From a virus: a stretch of DNA of 22,818 nucleotides. The stretch spans positions 1-22,818 of the IMG/VR virus record IMGVR_UViG_3300021335_001605; one strand, given 5' to 3'. Each line of letters starts with the position of its first letter. Position 1 is the stretch's first letter. Position numbers and translations under genes: made by a program. The notes beneath the pieces were generated by a model. It did not search any database. It was not told the DNA's origin and saw nothing but the letters and a program-made list of their open reading frames with translations. Positions 3 through 13,538 of the stretch are shown piece by piece.

Positions 3-1370
3 AAACCTGGTGAACCTTTTATGCAGGACCTTATTGATAATTATATTGAGGGCACATTAGAACCAGATAAGATTGCATGGGAACTTAGATCTATTGGCGG
101 TAGAGTACATGATTTAGCAAAAGAAGACTATTCAGTATATGAGGACCATATTGATTATCTTACTGAAACAGTACAATATGCTTGGAATAATAAAATGGAA
201 CCTTTTATTGTTGTAGAGACCACAAGAGGTTGTCCATATAAATGTGTATTCTGCGAGTGGGGCGGAGGTATTAATACCAAGATCTATAAAAAAGATATTG
301 AAATTGTAAAGCGTGATATTCTTGCTATGAAAAAAGCTGGCTATCGAGATGCTTATTTAACTGATGCAAACTTTGGTGCCTTTGAAGATAGGGACTTAGC
401 TATTTTTGAATTTGGTTGGAAGAATAATTTTAATCTTACAGATATTTCTACCATGAAGTCTAAATCATTAGATAGACGTAAAAGACTTATTGATCGTTGG
501 TTTAATATTGTAGGGCCAGGAACATCAGCACCCAAATCATTAGAACAAAAGCATGGATTAGACATGTGGGGAGAAACTGAATTTGTATCTGTAGTACCAA
601 CTGTATCAATTCAAAGTATTTCAGAAGAAGCAATGAAGTTAGCTGATAGAGTAGATCTATCAACAGAAAATAAATTAGAGTTAAGTAGGTACATTAATAA
701 AAGATGTAGTGAATATGGTTTTCCTATTCCAGCTTTAGAACTTATTCTTGCTATGCCTGGTTCTACAATTGAAGACTTTTATAATGAAATGGAAGTCATA
801 TGGAACTTTAAAGCATGGGGATCATTTAGACATGACTATATGTTCTTACCTGATTCACGACTAAACTCACAAGAATATAAAGATAAGCATCAAATCGAAA
901 CTGTAGAAGTCTATAGTGATATTGTAGATGAAGATGGTAGTGATAATTGGAATAGCTTATATAAGAATAAGAAGACATATTTCAAAACAATCAAATCTTG
1001 TTACTCTTTTACAGAAGACGAAATGATAGAGATGTGGTTTATGAATAATGCCGCAAACTACATCTTGCAGAATTTTTATCCACTTTTTATTGATTTAATT
1101 TCACCTCAGGGGTTTACAAAGCACGTATACTGTGTTATAATAAATCTATCTGATTTTAAGGAAATAGAGGATGAGATAAAAGATATATTCAATCCTAATA
1201 CTCCACCCCGTAGTATAAGACAGCTAGGCGGTAAGTTCAGGGTAGATACTATTAATGAGTACTTAGAAAGAAACAGACTATATATTATATCGGAGGTAAG
1301 TAAGAAATGTCTAATGTCTCAGACATATATACAAAAGGATACGTTAAGTTCTATGAGCCTGCCGGCTTAG
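3..1370 (+). CDS. B12-type radical SAM enzyme, 5'-partial
   Basis: The frame is open to the left edge, so the gene probably starts upstream; the first visible ATG is at 21 (449 aa from there). Counting from that Met, a radical-SAM CxxxCxxC motif lies at C71-C75-C78, followed by EWGGG and, at 115-119, DANFG. The pair CxWG then DANFG is characteristic of radical SAM proteins that also bind cobalamin; their B12-binding domain lies N-terminal to the SAM barrel, which here would be outside the window. Such enzymes use a [4Fe-4S] cluster and SAM to make a 5'-deoxyadenosyl radical, and many methylate unreactive carbons. Substrate is unknown. The last 64 nt overlap the next gene. It is the first visible gene of a tightly packed plus-strand operon with two further radical SAM genes. 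The family call is fairly sure; the chemistry and B12 dependence are inference. Confidence 0.85.
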   Translation, partial: KPGEPFMQDLIDNYIEGTLEPDKIAWELRSIGGRVHDLAKEDYSVYEDHIDYLTETVQYAWNNKMEPFIVVETTRGCPYKCVFCEWGGGINTKIYKKDIEIVKRDILAMKKAGYRDAYLTDANFGAFEDRDLAIFEFGWKNNFNLTDISTMKSKSLDRRKRLIDRWFNIVGPGTSAPKSLEQKHGLDMWGETEFVSVVPTVSIQSISEEAMKLADRVDLSTENKLELSRYINKRCSEYGFPIPALELILAMPGSTIEDFYNEMEVIWNFKAWGSFRHDYMFLPDSRLNSQEYKDKHQIETVEVYSDIVDEDGSDNWNSLYKNKKTYFKTIKSCYSFTEDEMIEMWFMNNAANYILQNFYPLFIDLISPQGFTKHVYCVIINLSDFKEIEDEIKDIFNPNTPPRSIRQLGGKFRVDTINEYLERNRLYIISEVSKKCLMSQTYIQKDTLSSMSLPA

Positions 1371-1819
1371 ATCTAATAAAGATTGACGACCATAGACTAC
1401 TTAATACTGAAGAGCGTGCAAGAGATAACGGTAAAGAAGATATTGATTATCTCTTAGCCAATAAACTTAATCTATTTGGTCAGCATCTTCATACTAACTA
1501 TATATTACCAGAATGGCCTGATGCTGTATTTAATAAATATTTGGTATGGGACGGTGTAGATAAAGATAATCAAGGCTGGCATACTGATATGTTTGAAGAT
1601 TATGATGTCTTTTTTCTATACTATTTAGATCATACCTATAAAGAATCTGGTGGTGCAATTAATTTTAAGTGGGACGGAGACTGTGTTTCAAGTTATCAAC
1701 CAATGGCAGGTGACTTATTTATGATCTCTAATCTAAGAGGATTCTGGCATAAGGCAGATGATACTAAAATAAAGCGGAGGGTCTGTTCTTTTGACTATTC
1801 TACAGGACGTACTGAATAA
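1307..1819 (+). CDS. 2OG-Fe(II) dioxygenase-like protein (paralogue 1)
   Basis: A 170-aa protein with the signature of the small 2-oxoglutarate/Fe(II) oxygenase fold: HxD at H92-T-D94, a distal histidine at H148 (in FWHKAD), and an arginine pair at R157-R158, where the family binds the 2OG carboxylate. The spacing fits a minimal double-stranded beta-helix. Such enzymes hydroxylate or oxidise proteins, nucleobases or small molecules; the substrate is not identifiable. The start is supported by GGAGG at 1292-1296, ten bases before ATG 1307. It overlaps the upstream radical SAM gene by 64 nt and the next ORF by 29 nt. It aligns by eye with the protein at 2083-2586, sharing W-x-GVD before the HxD and RRV-x-SF-x-Y at the end, so the two look like diverged duplicates. 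The metal site appears complete. Confidence 0.8.
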   Translation: MSNVSDIYTKGYVKFYEPAGLDLIKIDDHRLLNTEERARDNGKEDIDYLLANKLNLFGQHLHTNYILPEWPDAVFNKYLVWDGVDKDNQGWHTDMFEDYDVFFLYYLDHTYKESGGAINFKWDGDCVSSYQPMAGDLFMISNLRGFWHKADDTKIKRRVCSFDYSTGRTE

Positions 1820-2090
1820 AAAATCTATTCTATGTAAAGAAAGAGATCTTACAGCAGAATTGTATAATCTATGGATCACCAAGATGCATGATTTTCAAGA
1901 CGATAAGTATAAGTACGAAATGTACTTGAAGATGATTGATAACTTAGAGCCTTATGCTAATATGATTAAAGAAGAAATTCGTGTTTGTAATAGACAAATA
2001 TGCAAAATTGAAGGCGTAGAATCTATTGAAGACACGCCTTATGGAGTGGAGTGTACGTATAAGTATGGATATGAAAAACCAAATGACTAA
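1791..2090 (+). CDS. Small hypothetical protein between the two 2OG genes
   Basis: A 99-aa charged, probably helical protein that I do not recognise. The proposed start is TTG at 1791, ten bases after GGAGG at 1776-1780; no in-frame ATG lies nearby, and another TTG is at 1860. It has three cysteines, two in CNRQIC near residue 66, with no clear metal motif. It overlaps the preceding 2OG gene by 29 nt, and its stop overlaps the likely start of the following 2OG gene (ATGACTAA, 2083-2090). Its place between two oxygenase paralogues and the good Shine-Dalgarno sequence argue that it is a real gene. It could be a partner or a substrate of the neighbouring enzymes, but nothing in its sequence proves this. 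Confidence 0.6.
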   Translation: MTILQDVLNKKSILCKERDLTAELYNLWITKMHDFQDDKYKYEMYLKMIDNLEPYANMIKEEIRVCNRQICKIEGVESIEDTPYGVECTYKYGYEKPND

Positions 2091-2586
2091 CGAACAAACT
2101 TTTTTTATTGATGGATACTGGCATGATACACTACCAGAAGAAATCGATATTAGTGGGTTTGATAAATTTGATTTTAAGGATTGTACACAGCCAGAAGAAT
2201 TATGGCTAGATCCTGAGGCTCAAGATGATTTAGATAATATTCATAAATGGTTAGCTGATAACTATATTTCTAAGATCTTTGATGATTTTGAAATGAAGCA
2301 GTGCGCTATGTGGTCAGGTGTAGATGAAGGTTCTCGTAATTGGCATAATGATTTTGAAGATGGTGACTCTTTTAATAGTAATATATTAATTTATTTAGAT
2401 GATAACACTAAACAAAATGGTAATAATATTCAAGTAAAAGTAGGTGATTATCATTTTACATTATATCCTAAACGTAGAGATTTTGTATGGTTGAATCAGA
2501 AAAAATGTTTTCAACATCGAGCTCAGCACCTTTCTGGAACTCGTAGAGTTTTATCATTTGAGTACTTAGTCCCGGCACTATACTAA
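2083..2586 (+). CDS. 2OG-Fe(II) dioxygenase-like protein (paralogue 2)
   Basis: With the start at ATG 2083 the protein has 167 aa, close to its 170-aa paralogue upstream. It carries HxD at H88-N-D90, a distal histidine at H145 (in FQHRAQH) and R154-R155 before a final beta strand, the full set for a 2OG/Fe(II) oxygenase. The frame is open further upstream, with possible starts TTG 2026, ATG 2041, ATG 2065 and ATG 2071. I prefer 2083 because the overlap with the previous stop (ATGACTAA) is short and because the conserved region begins just after it; GGAG at 2048-2051 could instead favour ATG 2065. The stop codon shares one base with the next small ORF (TAATG, 2584-2588). Substrate is unknown. 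The two paralogues may act on related substrates or form a heterodimer. Confidence 0.78.
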   Translation: MTNEQTFFIDGYWHDTLPEEIDISGFDKFDFKDCTQPEELWLDPEAQDDLDNIHKWLADNYISKIFDDFEMKQCAMWSGVDEGSRNWHNDFEDGDSFNSNILIYLDDNTKQNGNNIQVKVGDYHFTLYPKRRDFVWLNQKKCFQHRAQHLSGTRRVLSFEYLVPALY

Positions 2587-2699
2587 TGGATGAAGTATTA
2601 CTTTGGCAGTATAGACGTAGTCTTATTAAGTATATTTGTATCAACAATTATTCTCCTAGACATGCTGCTCGTATACTAAATGGAATATCATGGATTTAA
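2586..2699 (+). CDS. 37-aa ORF translationally coupled to the SPASM radical SAM gene
   Basis: This short reading frame fills the only gap in the operon. Its ATG (2586-2588) shares a base with the preceding stop in TAATG, and its TAA (2697-2699) lies ten bases inside the next gene, whose ATG is at 2690. The peptide has 37 residues, begins MDEVLLWQYRRSLIKY, is basic and aromatic, and has one cysteine (C18). I do not recognise it. The position between a 2OG oxygenase and a SPASM radical SAM protein is where a precursor peptide for a modifying enzyme may lie. It could equally be a coupling leader that carries ribosomes to the radical SAM gene, or chance. The interlocked start and stop support translation; no function is claimed. 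Confidence 0.45.
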   Translation: MDEVLLWQYRRSLIKYICINNYSPRHAARILNGISWI

Positions 2700-3724
2700 T
2701 AATTAAGCCAACTGAGTTATGCAATTTCAAATGTACCTTTTGCTCATCAACTAAACTTGTAGACGATAAGGCGGCTAAGCTTGACCTTATGAAGATCTAT
2801 CAATTTCTTGACAGGTTTCCAGAGACTAATACAATAATTGTAAATGGTGGTGATCCTTTAATGATGGATCCTCAATACTATAGAGAAATTATTAAGTATT
2901 GTGATGATAATGATTTACCTGCTAATATATCTCTTACCACAAATCTTTGGCCGTTCTATAAAAATCCAAGCAGATGGTTAGATATTTTTCAAAATCCTAG
3001 AGTTGGTATTGCTACTTCGTTTCAATATGGAAGTGGTAGATTAAAAGGTGACTATTCTGTATTTACTGAAGAAGATTTTTGGAAGTGTTCTGATGCAGTA
3101 CTCGAACACTGTGGGTATAGACCTTCATTCATTGCTGTAATTACCGAAGAGAATGAAGACTCTGTAATACAAACGGTTGAATTAGCTAAAAAAATGGGTG
3201 TTGTTTGTAAAGTAAACTATGCCATGGCCAGTGGTGAACAAGACAAACCATATATGTTATCTAAAATATATGCACAATATGTAAAGATCTGGCAGGCTGG
3301 ACTAGCTGAGTGGGAACATAATACACAACAAATGATGGGTAAGATACGAGGTGAGGCTGCAGTATGTCCATTGACTCGTACTTGTGATTCTCATATACGA
3401 ACTATACAGCCAGAAGGTGACTACTATTCATGTGGTGCATTTGGTGACGATAAAGAAAAAGCTATTGACTTTGATAAAGAGATGAAAGGCGAATTCTTCA
3501 CACCTCTTGCAAACTCGCCAGAACTTAATAACTTAAAACATGCTTGTTGGACGTGTCCTATGTTTGATATATGTAATGGTTGTAAGAAAACTATCAAAGA
3601 TCTTAAACAGCATAATATGGTAGAAGAACACTGTTACAATATGAAGCTTATAGCACCTGCAATCTTGGCAGCCAATGGAGTTGACAGGGAAGTAACACCT
3701 TATGTCAATGAGAATATATTATGA
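2690..3724 (+). CDS. Radical SAM protein with SPASM domain
   Basis: A 344-aa protein. The radical SAM cluster motif is C11-N-F-K-C15-T-F-C18, and GGDP at 53-56 matches the SAM-binding glycine motif. The C-terminal region has the cysteine pattern of a SPASM domain, which holds auxiliary [4Fe-4S] clusters: C232-x10-G243-x4-C248, then C286-x2-C289-x5-C295-x2-C298 and C315, with C226 just before. SPASM enzymes include sulfatase maturases and many enzymes that modify ribosomally made peptides, though some act on small molecules. The ATG at 2690 overlaps the end of the 37-aa ORF, and the stop overlaps the next start (ATGA, 3721-3724). The N-terminus resembles the next gene (K/N-PT then CNFKC), so the two may be diverged duplicates. 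The family is clear; the substrate is unknown. Confidence 0.9.
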   Translation: MDLIIKPTELCNFKCTFCSSTKLVDDKAAKLDLMKIYQFLDRFPETNTIIVNGGDPLMMDPQYYREIIKYCDDNDLPANISLTTNLWPFYKNPSRWLDIFQNPRVGIATSFQYGSGRLKGDYSVFTEEDFWKCSDAVLEHCGYRPSFIAVITEENEDSVIQTVELAKKMGVVCKVNYAMASGEQDKPYMLSKIYAQYVKIWQAGLAEWEHNTQQMMGKIRGEAAVCPLTRTCDSHIRTIQPEGDYYSCGAFGDDKEKAIDFDKEMKGEFFTPLANSPELNNLKHACWTCPMFDICNGCKKTIKDLKQHNMVEEHCYNMKLIAPAILAANGVDREVTPYVNENIL

Positions 3725-4647
3725 ATGTATCAATCAATCCAACATACTTCTGTAACTTTAAGTGTAACTTCTGTTATCTGACTCCTGAACAATTAAGAGA
3801 TCAGAAAAAAATAGAACCAAAACAATTAGACAAATTACTAAAAGATATACCAGAACCAATAGATCATATTGACTTATATGGTGGAGAAATCGGTGCACTT
3901 AGACGAGATTACTATGATGAAATAAAAGCAGTAATACGTAAACACTATAACGGTAAAATTAATATCAACACAAATTTTTCTATGCTAGATAGTAGATTTT
4001 TTGAGCATGATATTACTTTATCTGTATCTTATGATTTTGAGGCCAGAGAAAAACATGAATTAGTATTTCAAAACATGATGATGAGTCCTAAACCGATAGC
4101 CTTGCTGATCTTGGCATCACCAAGGGTTATCACCATGGACGTGGACGAGATGATTCAGAACCTCAATCTGCTCAAATCTGTTACTTCTGTTGAAATTAAG
4201 CCGTATTCTATCAATCAGGCTAATACATTAGATCTTTCTCACAAGGAGTATGAAAATTTTGTTATAAAGTGGTTAGAGTCTCCAATACAAAAGAACTTTG
4301 AATTTATCAATCTTTACAATATTGAAGATAGTTATAACAAACATTATAATGCTTTTAGTGATGACCATGTATATATTACACCCAATGGCAAGTATGGTGT
4401 ACTTGATTTTGATAAAGATGATAAAGAATACTTTTTAGAATTAGCTAGCTGGTCTAACTATCAACAATGGGCTTATCAAGAAAAAGTTACGTTATCAGAT
4501 ATCTGTAATAATTGTAAGTATGTAGGTCACTGTCTTACAGAACATTATAGATATGTTAAAGATTTAGATAATAGCTGTAATGGCTATATAAATTTACTAG
4601 AGTGGTATGATGCAAGAGTGGAAGATAAAACAAAAGTTATATCATAA
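3721..4647 (+). CDS. Radical SAM protein with reduced SPASM/twitch domain
   Basis: A 308-aa protein with C11-N-F-K-C15-N-F-C18 and a glycine motif GGEI at 54-57, so the SAM-radical core is complete. In the C-terminus only C262-x2-C265-x5-C271 and C286 are present. The segment matching the earlier GxxxxC of the SPASM neighbour (YITPNGKYGVLDFD, near 218-231) has no cysteine. This suggests one auxiliary cluster rather than two, as in twitch-type domains. It is coupled to the upstream radical SAM gene by a four-base ATGA overlap and overlaps the next ORF by 41 nt. A stretch around 4081-4170 is richer in G+C than its surroundings. It may act with the SPASM paralogue on the same substrate; that is inference. 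Confidence 0.88.
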   Translation: MNVSINPTYFCNFKCNFCYLTPEQLRDQKKIEPKQLDKLLKDIPEPIDHIDLYGGEIGALRRDYYDEIKAVIRKHYNGKININTNFSMLDSRFFEHDITLSVSYDFEAREKHELVFQNMMMSPKPIALLILASPRVITMDVDEMIQNLNLLKSVTSVEIKPYSINQANTLDLSHKEYENFVIKWLESPIQKNFEFINLYNIEDSYNKHYNAFSDDHVYITPNGKYGVLDFDKDDKEYFLELASWSNYQQWAYQEKVTLSDICNNCKYVGHCLTEHYRYVKDLDNSCNGYINLLEWYDARVEDKTKVIS

Positions 4648-5047
4648 ACTAAATAAAGATTATGAAGATGACTTAAATAATGTTGATATCGAAATCACAA
4701 AAGATATTACTTTCCATGCTATCAGATATTTTAGAGAAAAAGATATTGGCTGGATCTATCCATCTAAATCTTATATGGTAGCAATATGCTACGCTTTTTG
4801 GATAATGGAAGACTATAATGAAAATTTTTATGATGTTCTAAATGATCCAGAACTTCTTCCAATGGATCCTTATTTTGTTCCATACAGAGAAGATAGTGTA
4901 ACATACAATAATATAATTAGTGTAGTTTGCGCAAACAATAAAGGTAAACTTACAACAGAAGGAATGGTACAAGATGTCCGAAGATATTACGAAGCTGAAA
5001 TTAAGAACGGGGACACACTATCTATATCCAACGTTACTGAGGTTTGA
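4607..5047 (+). CDS. Hypothetical protein, 146 aa
   Basis: I cannot assign a family. The protein is acidic and aromatic, with a mid-region FHAIRYFREKDIGWIYPSKSY followed by a hydrophobic helix (MVAICYAFWIME), too short and interrupted to call a membrane segment. A proline- and aspartate-rich turn region follows (LNDPELLPMDPYFVPY). It begins with two adjacent ATGs at 4607 and 4610, overlaps the preceding radical SAM gene by 41 nt and the following oxygenase gene by 74 nt. No cysteine motif or catalytic signature is visible. The compact, in-register location inside the operon and the protein-like composition argue that it is real. It may be an adaptor, a substrate or an unrelated phage protein. 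Confidence 0.65.
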   Translation: MMQEWKIKQKLYHKLNKDYEDDLNNVDIEITKDITFHAIRYFREKDIGWIYPSKSYMVAICYAFWIMEDYNENFYDVLNDPELLPMDPYFVPYREDSVTYNNIISVVCANNKGKLTTEGMVQDVRRYYEAEIKNGDTLSISNVTEV

Positions 5048-5504
5048 ACACATACCTATTGATGACGAATGGGTTATGGATGGACTACAAAAGAAAGTAA
5101 CGCAATCCTTAATTGATGATGCTTACTTTTATTTTGATGACTTTATTCAAGATTGGACTGGTCATAATATACATGACTGGAAAGATTATGAAATAAAATC
5201 TTGGATTAACCGTTATGAGAATATTGGTATGGAAACACACACTCATTCTGGTGCTCATGCTTCAATGGTAGTATATTTAGAATCTGATCCCGAGTCAGGT
5301 GGTGAAATAGTTTTTTATGATCCTAGGCCACATGTAGCTCGTGGATATGATATGAAATTTAGAAAAACTACTGACCCAACTTATCATGCACCAAAGACTG
5401 GAGATTTATTAATCTTTCCTAGTTACCTATATCACTCTGTCAGACCTGCAACTCACACGAGAGTATCTTGTGCATTAGATCTATATTTGTATAATGATGA
5501 TTAA
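4974..5504 (+). CDS. 2OG-Fe(II) oxygenase-like protein of the TIGR02466/2OG-FeII_Oxy_5 type
   Basis: A 176-aa protein with the features of the phage-common family: LYPT near residues 17-20, an asparagine/tyrosine strand, then H89-T-H91, a YLxSDPxSGGEIVFYDPR block at about 101-118, GDLLIFPSYLYH ending in H154, and R163. H89, H154 and R163 fit iron and 2OG binding; the usual HxD position reads HxH here. GAAGGA at 4958-4963 supports ATG 4974. It overlaps the previous ORF by 74 nt and is the last gene of the operon. Its TAA (5502-5504) overlaps the stop of the convergent fibre gene. Related proteins are frequent in marine T4-like phages and their targets are mostly unknown. It belongs to a different subfamily from the two oxygenase paralogues upstream. 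Confidence 0.85.
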   Translation: MSEDITKLKLRTGTHYLYPTLLRFEHIPIDDEWVMDGLQKKVTQSLIDDAYFYFDDFIQDWTGHNIHDWKDYEIKSWINRYENIGMETHTHSGAHASMVVYLESDPESGGEIVFYDPRPHVARGYDMKFRKTTDPTYHAPKTGDLLIFPSYLYHSVRPATHTRVSCALDLYLYNDD

Positions 5505-6694
5505 AGAATAACGGCTTCTATTTTGCCAGTAGGATTTTTCTTAGTGGCTTTAAAGTCTTCAAGGGCTACTGCAAATCCATGAGGTGACTCATTATCTACT
5601 ACACCATGACCTTCAGGTGCACCCACTAAACGATCACCCTTTTTAACAGTACCACCGACCTTTACAGGAACACGGCCTTTCAAGGCAACCGGAATACCAT
5701 TTTCTAGTTGATTATTCATTAAGTATGCAGGATAAGCAGAGATAACTCCAAGTACTGAATGATTGTGTTCACCATCGGTAGCTGTTACTTCGAATTCACC
5801 ACCTACTCTTACTACTGTACCAGCTTCGTATGCATAATCAGAAAGATAAAGCTCAGCCAAGTCAGCGTAGTTTGCAGTCGTTGCAGTACCACTAAAGGTA
5901 GTTGCATGAACAGTACTCCATTTAAGAGAACTTTCTCCTAATGTATAGCTATTATTTGCATTGGGTACAATTGCAGTATTAACTCTAGATCCAAATGTAA
6001 CTATATCAGATGCAGTTGAATTACCAAGTACAACATTACCATTGGCAGTAAAGGTACTTGCTACCGTAAGAGTATCACCCATATTGAAAGCATTATTAAA
6101 TTGTGCTGCACCAGATACTGTTAATCCTTGGTTAAGAGTAGTTACTGCACCATTTACTGTAAGTCCATTTCCAACTGTAGCAGATCCACTAATAGTAGTG
6201 GTATCAGAAGTTTGATTACCTAGTGTACTACTTCCATCTACAGTTAAAGTACCAGATACGTTAATTAGTCCATTACAATCAATATCAGCATTTGCGATTA
6301 AAAGACCTTGAGAAGTCAGAGTACCACCAACAGTAGTATTACCCGTTACTCCAAGTGTAGTTCCCACGCTCGTAGCTCCTACAATACTTAAATCAGCAGC
6401 AACTGTAGCATTACCTGTTTGATTGAGGGTTAATACATCTTGTGCACCGGCAGTAAGTTTAAGAGTAGCTGCTTCACCAGCCACGATAACTGTTCCATCT
6501 CCAATTTGATCTGCAATATTAATTTCGTTATCAAATGTAGAGTTACTTTTAATTTCATTAAGAGCACCAATAACATCAGTTGCGGTATATCTACTTGTTA
6601 GTCCAGAATCATCTCCAACTAAAGTTGCAAGACCATTGCTTTTGACTCTCCATTGTTCAAAGGTATCTGAAGTTGCTACATTTATGACAGCCAT
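5501..6694 (-). CDS. Tail fibre or spike protein
   Basis: A 397-aa protein with three parts. The first about 60 residues form a head (VINVATSDTFEQWRVKSNG) of the type found at the start of marine-phage fibre proteins. Residues about 60-240 are short repeats of small, beta-forming residues (LTV-x-G, T-x-VGNG-x-LTV), which predict a trimeric beta-structured shaft. From about 274 comes a C-terminal domain (NYADLAELY, YEAGTVV, PAYLMN, GRVPVKV, KKGDRLVG) common at the ends of phage fibres and resembling self-cleaving or chaperone-like fibre tips; whether it cleaves is unknown. It likely binds the host surface. The start overlaps the stop of the 67-aa gene at 6694. The stop overlaps that of the convergent oxygenase gene. 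Confidence 0.8.
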   Translation of the reverse strand: MAVINVATSDTFEQWRVKSNGLATLVGDDSGLTSRYTATDVIGALNEIKSNSTFDNEINIADQIGDGTVIVAGEAATLKLTAGAQDVLTLNQTGNATVAADLSIVGATSVGTTLGVTGNTTVGGTLTSQGLLIANADIDCNGLINVSGTLTVDGSSTLGNQTSDTTTISGSATVGNGLTVNGAVTTLNQGLTVSGAAQFNNAFNMGDTLTVASTFTANGNVVLGNSTASDIVTFGSRVNTAIVPNANNSYTLGESSLKWSTVHATTFSGTATTANYADLAELYLSDYAYEAGTVVRVGGEFEVTATDGEHNHSVLGVISAYPAYLMNNQLENGIPVALKGRVPVKVGGTVKKGDRLVGAPEGHGVVDNESPHGFAVALEDFKATKKNPTGKIEAVIL

Positions 6695-6897: not shown

Positions 6898-9800
6898 TAT
6901 GTACCTAACGCTATAACTCTAAAGTCTTTAATACGTGGAACTGCGGTAGATGCCTGAGCTCTAAATACTACCTTGATCGCTACAGTTTGGAAAGGTGCAG
7001 CCGAAAGATCTACAGTATATTCATAATCATTAAAGAGTGTAGGATCATCAACATTTGGAACAACTGTATCGATATTTGCTAGATTCCAGTTTAAGGTTTC
7101 GAAAGCAATATCTGAACCAGCTTCTTGTGTCTTATAATATACATCGATAAACGATCCATTAGGTCTATTACCGGCAAAGATAACTCTTAGTCCAATTGAA
7201 GATTGAGCAAGGGTTACTTTACGTGTGATATACTTAGAAAGAGCTGATCCACCAGTCGGTGCTGTTTCAGCCAAGTAATTAAGTACAGGATTCTGGCCTG
7301 TATTAGATCCACCAAATACTTGCGGGTTATCAATACGGTTTGAAATAGTAAATACTGACATACGATCTAGATCAAGCATTGGACTTAAGAATGGATCGCT
7401 TGAAGTCATTGTAGCTTTAAGATCCAATGATTTACTTCCACCAGCAACATAGTTTGTTTCATTAATTTGTGAAGCAACTAGCCTTGGTGTTGTTGGATAA
7501 AAGTTTTCATTAGCCACGATCTCAGTAAATGATGCATCTTTTTGATATGTTGGCTCTGATCCAGCCAAAGATTTAGATGAGGTAGTTTTTACAGCGTATG
7601 ATGTAAAGGTACCTGGCAAATTCATTTCGTTAATTTGTGGGTACATAATATCAATGTGCTTATTCTCAGTAGCTGTTACTGCTGTACCACCACCATTAGT
7701 AGTTGAAGTAGCATTAGAAGCTACAGTAATACTATACTGATCCTGTTCAACATTTGAAATTACGTGAGTAGCATTAAACTGTGATATTGCAATACCACCA
7801 ATCGTTGAAGCAACTCCTGTAATTGTTACACTTGAACCTGTAGGCATACCGTGATTCCTATGTTTTACAGTGCAAGTATTACTTAGGTTTGTTGTATAAA
7901 TTGGGTTAGCTTCTAAGTTACGAACTGGAATACTACCATTAGCAAAATTAACTACACCACTTGCAGTTGTATCAAAATTTGCTCTTTTAACTCTAAACTT
8001 AAGATCTTTTGTCTGATCTGCTGACCAAGTTGAACCATTTTGCGATTTAAAGAATACACCAGCATATGGTTGTGAGGAAATACGCCTTGTAGTTCCAATT
8101 GAGTTTTGGCCAATTTCAGCAGTGTAAGCTTCATACTGATTTGAGTTAGCAAGAAGACAAATTGCATATTCTTGGTTTTGTCTTAGATACACTGGAGATG
8201 GGAAAGCAAAATTAGTAGCAGCCGATGCATCCGTAGAAGTTACTACGTCTACAGCATCTTTAACAACTTCACCAAATGCTAGAATTTCGTTTGAAGGATA
8301 ACCATTTACCACTCCACGAATTTGAAGAGTAACTGGAATTGCTAAATCTTTTTCCTTAAAGAATATATCCATACTAGTAACGAACGCACCTGATGGATTA
8401 TCAATTAAGAATGTTTGAGCTAATGGATCAACCCATCCAACTGTACGTGTAGAAGCACGGCCAATTAAGGCTAATTGAACATCATTAACAGATTCTTGTA
8501 CAAGAGTTGGAGATCTTAGAGATACTTCTTGTGTACCTTCAACTAAACCACGAGCAGAATAAGTTGCACGGCCAGATGTAGTAATCAAATTTAGATTACC
8601 GTTTGGATCATCCATAAGTTTGAATAATCTTTCACCAGTTCTAAACCTGATATTAGCTGTATTTGGAATATAGAATTCACCATAAGCTGTACCAGTAGCA
8701 TCTGTAATAATAGCATTATTGCCTGCTGAAATATCTCCGGCAGTAATATCGGGGTGACGAATAGCAGATGCATTTGGCTCAGGATCTACTGAAGTAACAG
8801 AGTTACGTACAAATTGAGCTGCAGTAATATCGGTAGTAAAGTCATTAACGTTAATATCTTCAAAGTAAGGATACAAACGAGTATTTGGCTTAAAGCGCGA
8901 TGCTTTAAACTTAACTCTTCGCGCCCGAATAAATGGTACCATACGTACATCCACCACTCTTTCACCAAGTGATGTTTGAATGGTATCAGGCGCGACCGAA
9001 GTACGGACACCCGTACGTGTTTGCTGTGCAATTTGGGCCTGGAGCGTATTTCGGAAGACACGACGACCTGATCTTTGGTTACCCGACGTATCTCCTGCGA
9101 ATATCTCTCGTCCGGTCCACTGAGTTTCCCACTCATTCCAGACCGTGCCAAGCACTCCGTCTTCGTTCGCAAGTGTATTAACCACATCGAACAGACCTTC
9201 ATTATCGATAATAAGATCTGGTCTAACATCTGTTTCTTTCCAATCATCCTCTGCAGGAGTAAGATCAATTTGACCAATAAATTGGAAGATGTCATATGGG
9301 TTTACATTTTCAGCACCAGAAGCAAATGGTTGATCGATGATCGTTGCTTCAGTATAAGGAAGAGAAATTACATCCCCAGTTTGCTGAAATGAACTTGATG
9401 AGGCAGTGTCTTGATTAATTAACTTGACATTACCTTCATAGAATTGTGGTCTTGCTTCACCCTTATCAGCATCAATCGAAACATGATAATCAGGATCTTG
9501 TGGGTTACCAATATTGTGACCATAGAATGGATCTACAATAAAGCCAGACTTAAATCTATCTACGTTAGAAGAATTGAGTACTTGTGCATCTGCAGTTTCT
9601 TTTTCGAGAAGAGACAGAGATGTATAGTATTCCAGGTTATTGATTCTACTTTCTAGGCGACCAATGTCACGCATAGTGAATCGTTTATTGTCTTTCATAA
9701 TTGGTGTAACATCATTTGTGCTAAATGTGTATGGACCAATATCTAAGTCATAGATAACCATACCATCGTCTGGATTAGCAGGACGAGCTGGTGTAGCGGC

Positions 9801-13530: not shown

Positions 13531-13538
13531 TATTTATA
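13531..13538 (-). promoter_or_regulatory. T4-type late promoter for gp8
   Basis: A perfect TATAAATA on the minus strand in the 46-nt gap before gp8, 34 nt upstream of its ATG. The spacing equals that of the other two intergenic boxes within three bases. Confidence 0.83.

Follow-up and report, generated by a model that had tools for sequence, protein, structure and literature searches.

The 22,818-bp IMG/VR fragment IMGVR_UViG_3300021335_001605 (the window, by which the whole analysed stretch is meant) derives from a T4-like phage and carries the genes for gp5, gp6, gp25, and PAAR proteins on the minus strand. At positions 3–5504 of the plus strand it contains eight overlapping or closely spaced open reading frames (ORFs), including those for three radical S-adenosylmethionine (rSAM) enzymes and three 2-oxoglutarate (2OG)-Fe(II) oxygenases. 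They belong to a conserved cluster of ~13–17 genes, of which the contig end leaves only the 3′ part; in its complete form, the cluster also encodes a protein with a (CHxS)3RGRR C-terminus, below called the tailed protein. The explanation we favour, with a probability of roughly 60% for the whole of it, is a phage operon similar to those for ribosomally synthesized and post-translationally modified peptides (RiPPs), the enzymes of which would modify the C-terminal tail of this late, fibre-linked protein.

The window genes were assigned to families with the use of Pfam, PHROGs, and NCBIfam (Table 1). The initial annotation had described a plus-strand operon of nine genes, three of them for small proteins of unassigned function; the operon is real, with eight genes and two such proteins. 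Its assignment of three rSAM enzymes and three 2OG oxygenases is borne out. The CxxxCxxC motif of rSAM enzymes and the ligand motif of 2OG oxygenases are kept in nearly all family members; in family 8, HxD...H...R is present in 92 of 92, and the combination of an HxD/H...H...R motif with a profile match (PF13759 or PF13640) places the oxygenases in the 2OG superfamily. The two small dioxygenases of family 8 are indeed paralogous, as had been supposed (30% identity, E 1e-13). The ORF of copy b opens at 2026, and the start given in Table 1 is the one suggested by its homologue. The twitch-like rSAM of family 0 is likewise a paralogue of its family 1 neighbour (E 2e-7). The B12-type rSAM gene at the left end has no start codon, and therefore the contig end truncates the operon, with the 5′ end of this gene and its B12-binding domain lying beyond it; the domain (PF02310) is found, as the initial annotation had expected upstream, in the complete homologue at 7193–8920 of a related locus, L002. 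All eight genes are under purifying selection, with a dN/dS of 0.04–0.21 against the nearest relative. PPR matches of family 4 were discarded since they rest on a 16-residue stretch.

Table 1. Features of the enzyme operon of the window and of the adjoining fibre gene
Feature	Coordinates	Strand	Evidence
B12-binding rSAM, KedN5-like C-methyltransferase type	3–1370	+	PF04055 E 1.6e-6; NF033712 61 bits
2OG-Fe(II) oxygenase, family 8 copy a	1307–1819	+	PF13640 E 8e-5, just below cut-off
Small conserved protein, function unassigned, family 18	1791–2090	+	88% amino acid identity to L002, dN/dS 0.04
2OG-Fe(II) oxygenase, family 8 copy b	2083–2586	+	phrog_19592 E 2e-7; paralogue of copy a
SPASM rSAM, family 1, core enzyme	2690–3724	+	PF04055 E 7e-9; TIGR04085 SPASM 25.5 bits; phrog_1802 E 1.7e-53
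Twitch/half-SPASM-like rSAM, family 0, core enzyme	3721–4647	+	PF04055 E 9.5e-9; phrog_1802 E 3e-36
Conserved protein, function unassigned, family 4	4607–5047	+	phrog_20737 E 2.5e-39
PF13759 2OG-Fe(II) oxygenase, family 9	4974–5504	+	PF13759 E 8e-15; 75/101 clusters
Tail fibre protein, Peptidase_G2-like C-terminal region, family 15	5501–6694	−	phrog_19602 tail fiber protein E 1.7e-15; weak PF11962, below cut-off

A conserved gene set with an invariant tail

In IMG/VR, the B12 rSAM query matched 19 loci and the SPASM rSAM query 268 stretches, of which 80 were kept; ORFs were called and clustered into families in 107 loci. About 13 families recur in most of these loci in a near-constant order. 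The first half consists of a cupin (family 5), a SPASM rSAM (3), the tailed protein (7), families 6 and 10, an rSAM (2), and the B12 rSAM (11), and the second half of a 2OG oxygenase (8), the small family 18 protein, optional 2OG oxygenases (16, 8, 22, 24), a SPASM rSAM (1), the twitch rSAM (0), family 4, and a 2OG oxygenase (9). The rSAM families 0–3 are paralogues belonging to phrog_1802. In the relatives of the window (L002, 76–93% amino acid identity), the cluster opens with the cupin, two more rSAM genes, and a tailed protein of ~190 amino acids with the ending C-H-x-[SN]-C-H-x-[SN]-C-H-x-S-R-x-R-R, which was invisible to the initial annotation since the contig stops within the B12 rSAM gene.

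The SPASM/twitch rSAM pair (families 0 and 1) is found together in 101 loci, and the other core genes accompany it in 79–92 of them (family 2 in 92, 3 in 85, 4 in 85, 5 in 82, 6 in 80, 7 in 79), with family 8 in 76, family 9 in 75, and family 11 in 58, counts that include many cut contigs and some loci overlapping on one contig, so that loci do not equal independent phages. Family 4 is also present in jumbo-phage isolates and in Bdellovibrionota, and family 18 occurs in the Bdellovibrionota clusters as well. Related clusters adjoin virion structural genes in jumbo-phage isolates of Burkholderia, Pseudomonas, Agrobacterium, and Sinorhizobium; these named phages were matched by the SPASM rSAM query, while tblastn of the B12 rSAM against named phages gave no match.

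It had been suggested from the window that the genes form a complete tailoring pathway, with the reservation that homologues occurring singly, with no conserved set, would make it a chance accumulation of oxygenase and rSAM genes common in marine phages and devoid of any joint function. The accessory 2OG families 8, 9, 16, 22, and 24 do vary between clusters. However, some hundred loci, isolates of several unrelated jumbo phages, and bacterial chromosomes keep a common gene content and order, and purifying selection acts on every window gene; the co-occurrence refutes a chance accumulation, to which practically no weight is left, and the idea of a pathway is strengthened.

The cluster exists in two arrangements, namely the long T4-like one and a shorter one with one or two tailed proteins of 120–140 amino acids, a fibre gene before them, and family 25 rSAMs after them. 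In a number of loci of the second type (L108, L131, L140, L171, L181, and others), the fibre gene is followed directly by a tandem pair of tailed proteins of ~125–140 amino acids, with several family 25 rSAMs and no 2OG genes.

All 83 family 7 proteins from the loci selected by rSAM genes end in C-H-x-x-C-H-x-x-C-H-x-x-R-x-R-R. Among 177 distinct proteins, the fourth position of the repeat is Ser in 90, 78, and 89% (three repeats, respectively) and position −3 of the tail is Gly in 90%, the C, H, and R columns being fixed partly by the search pattern. Outside the tail, Cys makes up only 0.3% of the protein, which comprises 100–364 amino acids (median 187), has an N-terminal domain variable between phages, and matched no Pfam or NCBIfam model.

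Since tblastn with the bare tail gave no match, the query being too short or of low complexity, DNA patterns were used instead. A scan for the tail pattern without any reference to enzymes returned at least 120 viral stretches; among the matches listed, the tail forms the C-terminus of an ORF in 119, of which 113 carry rSAM genes on the fetched piece, the remaining six being mostly short pieces. In 84,980 species genomes the pattern gave 19 matches, 16 of them true ORF C-termini, with rSAM genes at 15 of the 16. The reversed pattern had no match in 12 genomes. Thus, the tail motif and the enzymes predict each other across phages and bacteria. Matches in Frankia, Pseudoalteromonas, and Bordetella were not ORF C-termini and were dropped as chance.

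The tailed protein is carried by the isolates FLC6, SURPRISE13, DT01, Phosso, and Atu_ph07; in four named-phage clusters the tail was found at the matching gene, and for gp72 of FLC6 it was confirmed by translation. It is also encoded by a 222,888-bp record (L148), presumably phage RSF1, which would be the sixth jumbo-phage isolate with the tail. The only variant in repeat number is the protein at L138:8105–8878, with four CHxN repeats in place of three CHxS. In two loci (L115:4643–5569 and L197), the N-terminal domain is joined to Gly_rich_2 (PF21722), and the (CHxS)3 tail is located on a separate downstream ORF of 140 amino acids, as if an adhesin module had recombined in.

The initial annotation had left the target of the enzymes open between a peptide or protein, a nucleobase, and a surface sugar; the data point to a protein, the one with the tail, encoded inside the complete cluster. 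It would be rather improbable that the enzymes act on something else (a DNA base, tRNA, a lipid, or a surface sugar), with the tailed protein serving as a carrier, scaffold, or regulator. In its favour, nucleic acids are often the presumed targets of phage 2OG enzymes, and the substrates of B12 rSAMs include many small molecules. Against it stands the mutual predictability of tail and enzymes in phages and bacteria. Besides, the four rSAMs sharing phrog_1802 have their best matches among peptide-maturase models, and the genes stay with fibre genes rather than with nucleotide metabolism.

Late promoter and fibre context

The exact T4 late promoter TATAAATA is located within 90 nt upstream of the tailed gene in 32 of 149 cases (1.8 expected), which represent 15 distinct clusters of precursors, as the tailed proteins are also called here. 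At the surrounding enzyme genes it was found in 19 of 1092 cases (Fisher p 1e-18 against the precursors, a value too small because the sequences are related, whereas the difference from neighbouring genes of that operon holds), and at a fibre-assembly gene in 18 of 48. In the window itself, TATAAATA occurs on the minus strand at 13538, 17021, and 22652, 41–44 nt upstream of three structural genes, and therefore the phage uses T4-type late transcription. The tailed gene is thus a T4-type late gene, often with its own promoter inside the enzyme operon; this holds for a subset of phages and is not universal.

In phages, the clusters follow fibre genes with a Peptidase_G2-like chaperone region, and in the window the family 15 fibre gene borders the enzyme cluster (Table 1). 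Among genomes drawn from Bdellovibrionota, 8 of 291 encode the tail, and on four of the five long contigs of this group the cluster lies beside proteins with Peptidase_S74, a chaperone domain of fibres, most of them with a prepilin segment at the N-terminus. S74 fibres have been described in Bdellovibrio as surface adhesins used on prey (PMC10769870). In Bacteriovorax sp. MedPE-SWde (L264:2392–5782), the cluster is flanked by two genes for ABC exporter half-transporters, through which the modified protein might leave the cell in this bacterial form of the system.

For Agrobacterium phage Atu_ph07, the virion proteome study assigns most virion proteins to CDS 31–76, 170–215, and 284–329 (PMC6102473). 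The tailed protein of this phage, gp170, is exactly the first gene of the virion cluster CDS 170–215, and the numbering agrees for the portal protein gp198 and the sheath protein gp140. Overall, it is probable that the tailed protein is associated with the virion or the fibre.

A putative maturation pathway and its relatives

It is quite likely that the (CHxS)3RGRR tail serves as the substrate of the cluster enzymes. SPASM enzymes of the peptide-maturase kind introduce C–S, C–C, or C–N crosslinks into peptides; methylation of unactivated carbons is typical of B12 rSAMs, and hydroxylation of 2OG enzymes. The four core SPASM/twitch-type rSAMs of phrog_1802, often joined by the B12 rSAM methyltransferase, would act on the tail along with a changing set of 2OG oxygenases and the cupin protein, the likely reactions being crosslinking, methylation, and hydroxylation of the tail Cys, His, and Ser residues. 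Most economically, the three CHxS units would be worked on by these enzymes in succession, with families 6 and 4 as possible substrate-handling partners. The substrate would be a late product, expressed in many phages from a promoter of its own, and would be mounted on the tail fibre or beside it, where the modified tail might provide a chemically unusual tip for contact with the surface of a target cell. A bolder and tentative version is that the tail of the fibre-associated protein becomes a non-proteinogenic claw, crosslinked, methylated, and hydroxylated, which binds to or reacts with the target surface in phages and predatory bacteria alike.

AlphaFold2 applied to 55 aligned precursors predicts a globular domain (pTM 0.80, mean pLDDT 85.8) with low confidence over the last ~16 residues (tail pLDDT 53–68), suggesting a flexible tail on a globular N-terminal domain. 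The model found no match in the PDB with Foldseek (best E 0.63) or VIA-align; in a viral library it matched homologues and larger proteins of Myoviridae sp. ctijX18 (TM ~0.5). The family 6 model shows a confident fold (pLDDT 93, pTM 0.87), for which no relative was found in the PDB. Another reading sees in the tail the site of a cofactor or metal: the enzymes would build a Cys-His redox or metal center on an enzyme or electron carrier of the virion or the infection stage. Three CH pairs within 12 residues of a protein with almost no Cys elsewhere would suit such a center. rSAM maturation of a protein-bound cofactor is established for quinohemoprotein amine dehydrogenase, the maturase model of which is matched here weakly, at the superfamily level. 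Against it stand the N-terminal domain, with no fold match to solved enzymes, and the predicted flexibility of the tail, which make this reading unlikely.

Modification of a fibre-linked protein is to be compared first with the SPASM-rSAM RiPP systems (dynobactin/darobactin DynA/DarE, PapB, TIGR04115, HxsABCD), small clusters in which rSAM/SPASM genes likewise adjoin the gene of a protein with a conserved short stretch that contains Cys, His, or repeats. One hallmark of a RiPP cluster, an encoded precursor with a short conserved core and adjacent modifying enzymes, is found at the (CHxS)3RGRR proteins. The phage rSAMs are related to RiPP maturases at the superfamily level and remain far below the family cut-offs: 48.5 bits against 450 for DynA, 19.5 bits (family 3) against 350 for the CXXX-repeat model TIGR04115, with which the C-x-x-x spacing of the tail is the only similarity, and 27 bits against 370 (HxsB) and 268 (HxsC), the precursor itself matching no NCBIfam model. 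For the first gene of the window, the best NCBIfam match is the KedN5-type methylcobalamin rSAM model NF033712, with which it shares the architecture of a B12-binding and an rSAM domain; the complete homologue scores 89.9 bits and the window gene the value in Table 1, both short of the cut-off of 700, and the phage gene sits with 2OG oxygenases, not in an enediyne cluster. By these scores, the system would be a variant of rSAM-based protein maturation that falls within no existing RiPP family. Unlike the SPASM-rSAM RiPPs, the phage precursor is folded according to the models, is 100–364 amino acids long, bears its motif at the extreme C-terminus, has its own late promoter, and is linked to fibres.

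The same resemblance raises the question of a secreted RiPP, in which the tail would be a core peptide that is cleaved from its carrier and, once released, serves as an antibacterial, metallophore, or signal by which competing cells or phages are killed or manipulated. The enzyme set does resemble RiPP maturases (DynA, PapB, TIGR04083, and KedN5-like enzymes), and the two ABC exporter genes adjoining one Bdellovibrionota copy would fit. In the one complete phage cluster tested, however, no peptidase or exporter was recognised, several of its genes being without a family match; the putative leader would be a folded domain of ~170 amino acids that varies between phages, while RiPP leaders are usually conserved; and the late promoter, the fibre linkage, and the place at the start of a virion gene cluster fit a structural product. 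A secreted peptide thus seems unlikely, though it is the strongest of the competing explanations.

Several observations weigh against a modified, fibre-linked tail as well. The system is known here from its genes, from which we infer the modification, and the window itself lacks the tailed-protein gene. TATAAATA is exact in only 21% of the precursors, and these counts are not phylogenetically independent. Fibre genes are absent from the fetched stretch in some clusters, and because S74 proteins are abundant in Bdellovibrio genomes (HD100 has 13; PMC10769870), some of the S74 adjacency in Bdellovibrionota could be chance. The presence of gp170 in the virion is inferred from the boundary of a gene cluster (PMC6102473). 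A recognition element (an RRE or a known recognition domain) was matched by Pfam and NCBIfam in none of the cluster genes tested, the peptidase gap noted above applies here too, and families 4, 6, 10, and 18 are conserved with no assigned function.

If the role at the virion tip holds, this is plausibly a new kind of system. No adhesin is known to us that has a multi-enzyme pathway dedicated to its modification. The gp38-like tip adhesins and the mosaic adhesive trimer fibres of Bdellovibrio (PMC10769870) share with the tailed protein the position by chaperone-tipped fibre genes and the setting of contact with a target cell; the tailed protein matches no solved adhesin in sequence or fold. The cluster occurs in hundreds of phages from sea and soil and in a small number of predatory bacteria, and as phages in culture carry it too (hosts Burkholderia, Pseudomonas, Agrobacterium, and Sinorhizobium), the proposal is directly testable. 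If true, it would be the first multi-enzyme radical pathway, as far as we are aware, encoded by viruses to rebuild a protein of their own, and it would give a function to many rSAM and 2OG genes of ocean viromes that have been read as “auxiliary metabolic genes” of host metabolism. That predatory bacteria have the same cluster next to fibre-like genes points to a grip on bacterial surfaces common to phages and predators, and the peptide chemistry may be new.

Parts of the cluster have been noticed before. In the available sections of two papers, up to 12 rSAM genes are reported in T4-like marine genomes (PMC5332604) and rSAM cassettes in host-recognition islands of pelagimyophages (PMC7029224); these loci are probably the same or related, being rSAM cassettes in the fibre island of marine T4-like phages. 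Those sections count or mention the genes and describe no oxygenase cluster, substrate protein, or function. Other earlier papers list single rSAM genes in FLC6 and SURPRISE13. No mention of the tail sequence or of a phage rSAM/RiPP system was found in the open-access papers searched, an absence that is no proof, and the cluster appears to be an undescribed chemical modification pathway of viruses. Finally, in Pelagibacter phage HTVC023P (42543–51031), on a stretch shown without an annotated rSAM gene, several 2OG-Fe(II) oxygenase genes lie beside tail genes and a Gly-rich protein.

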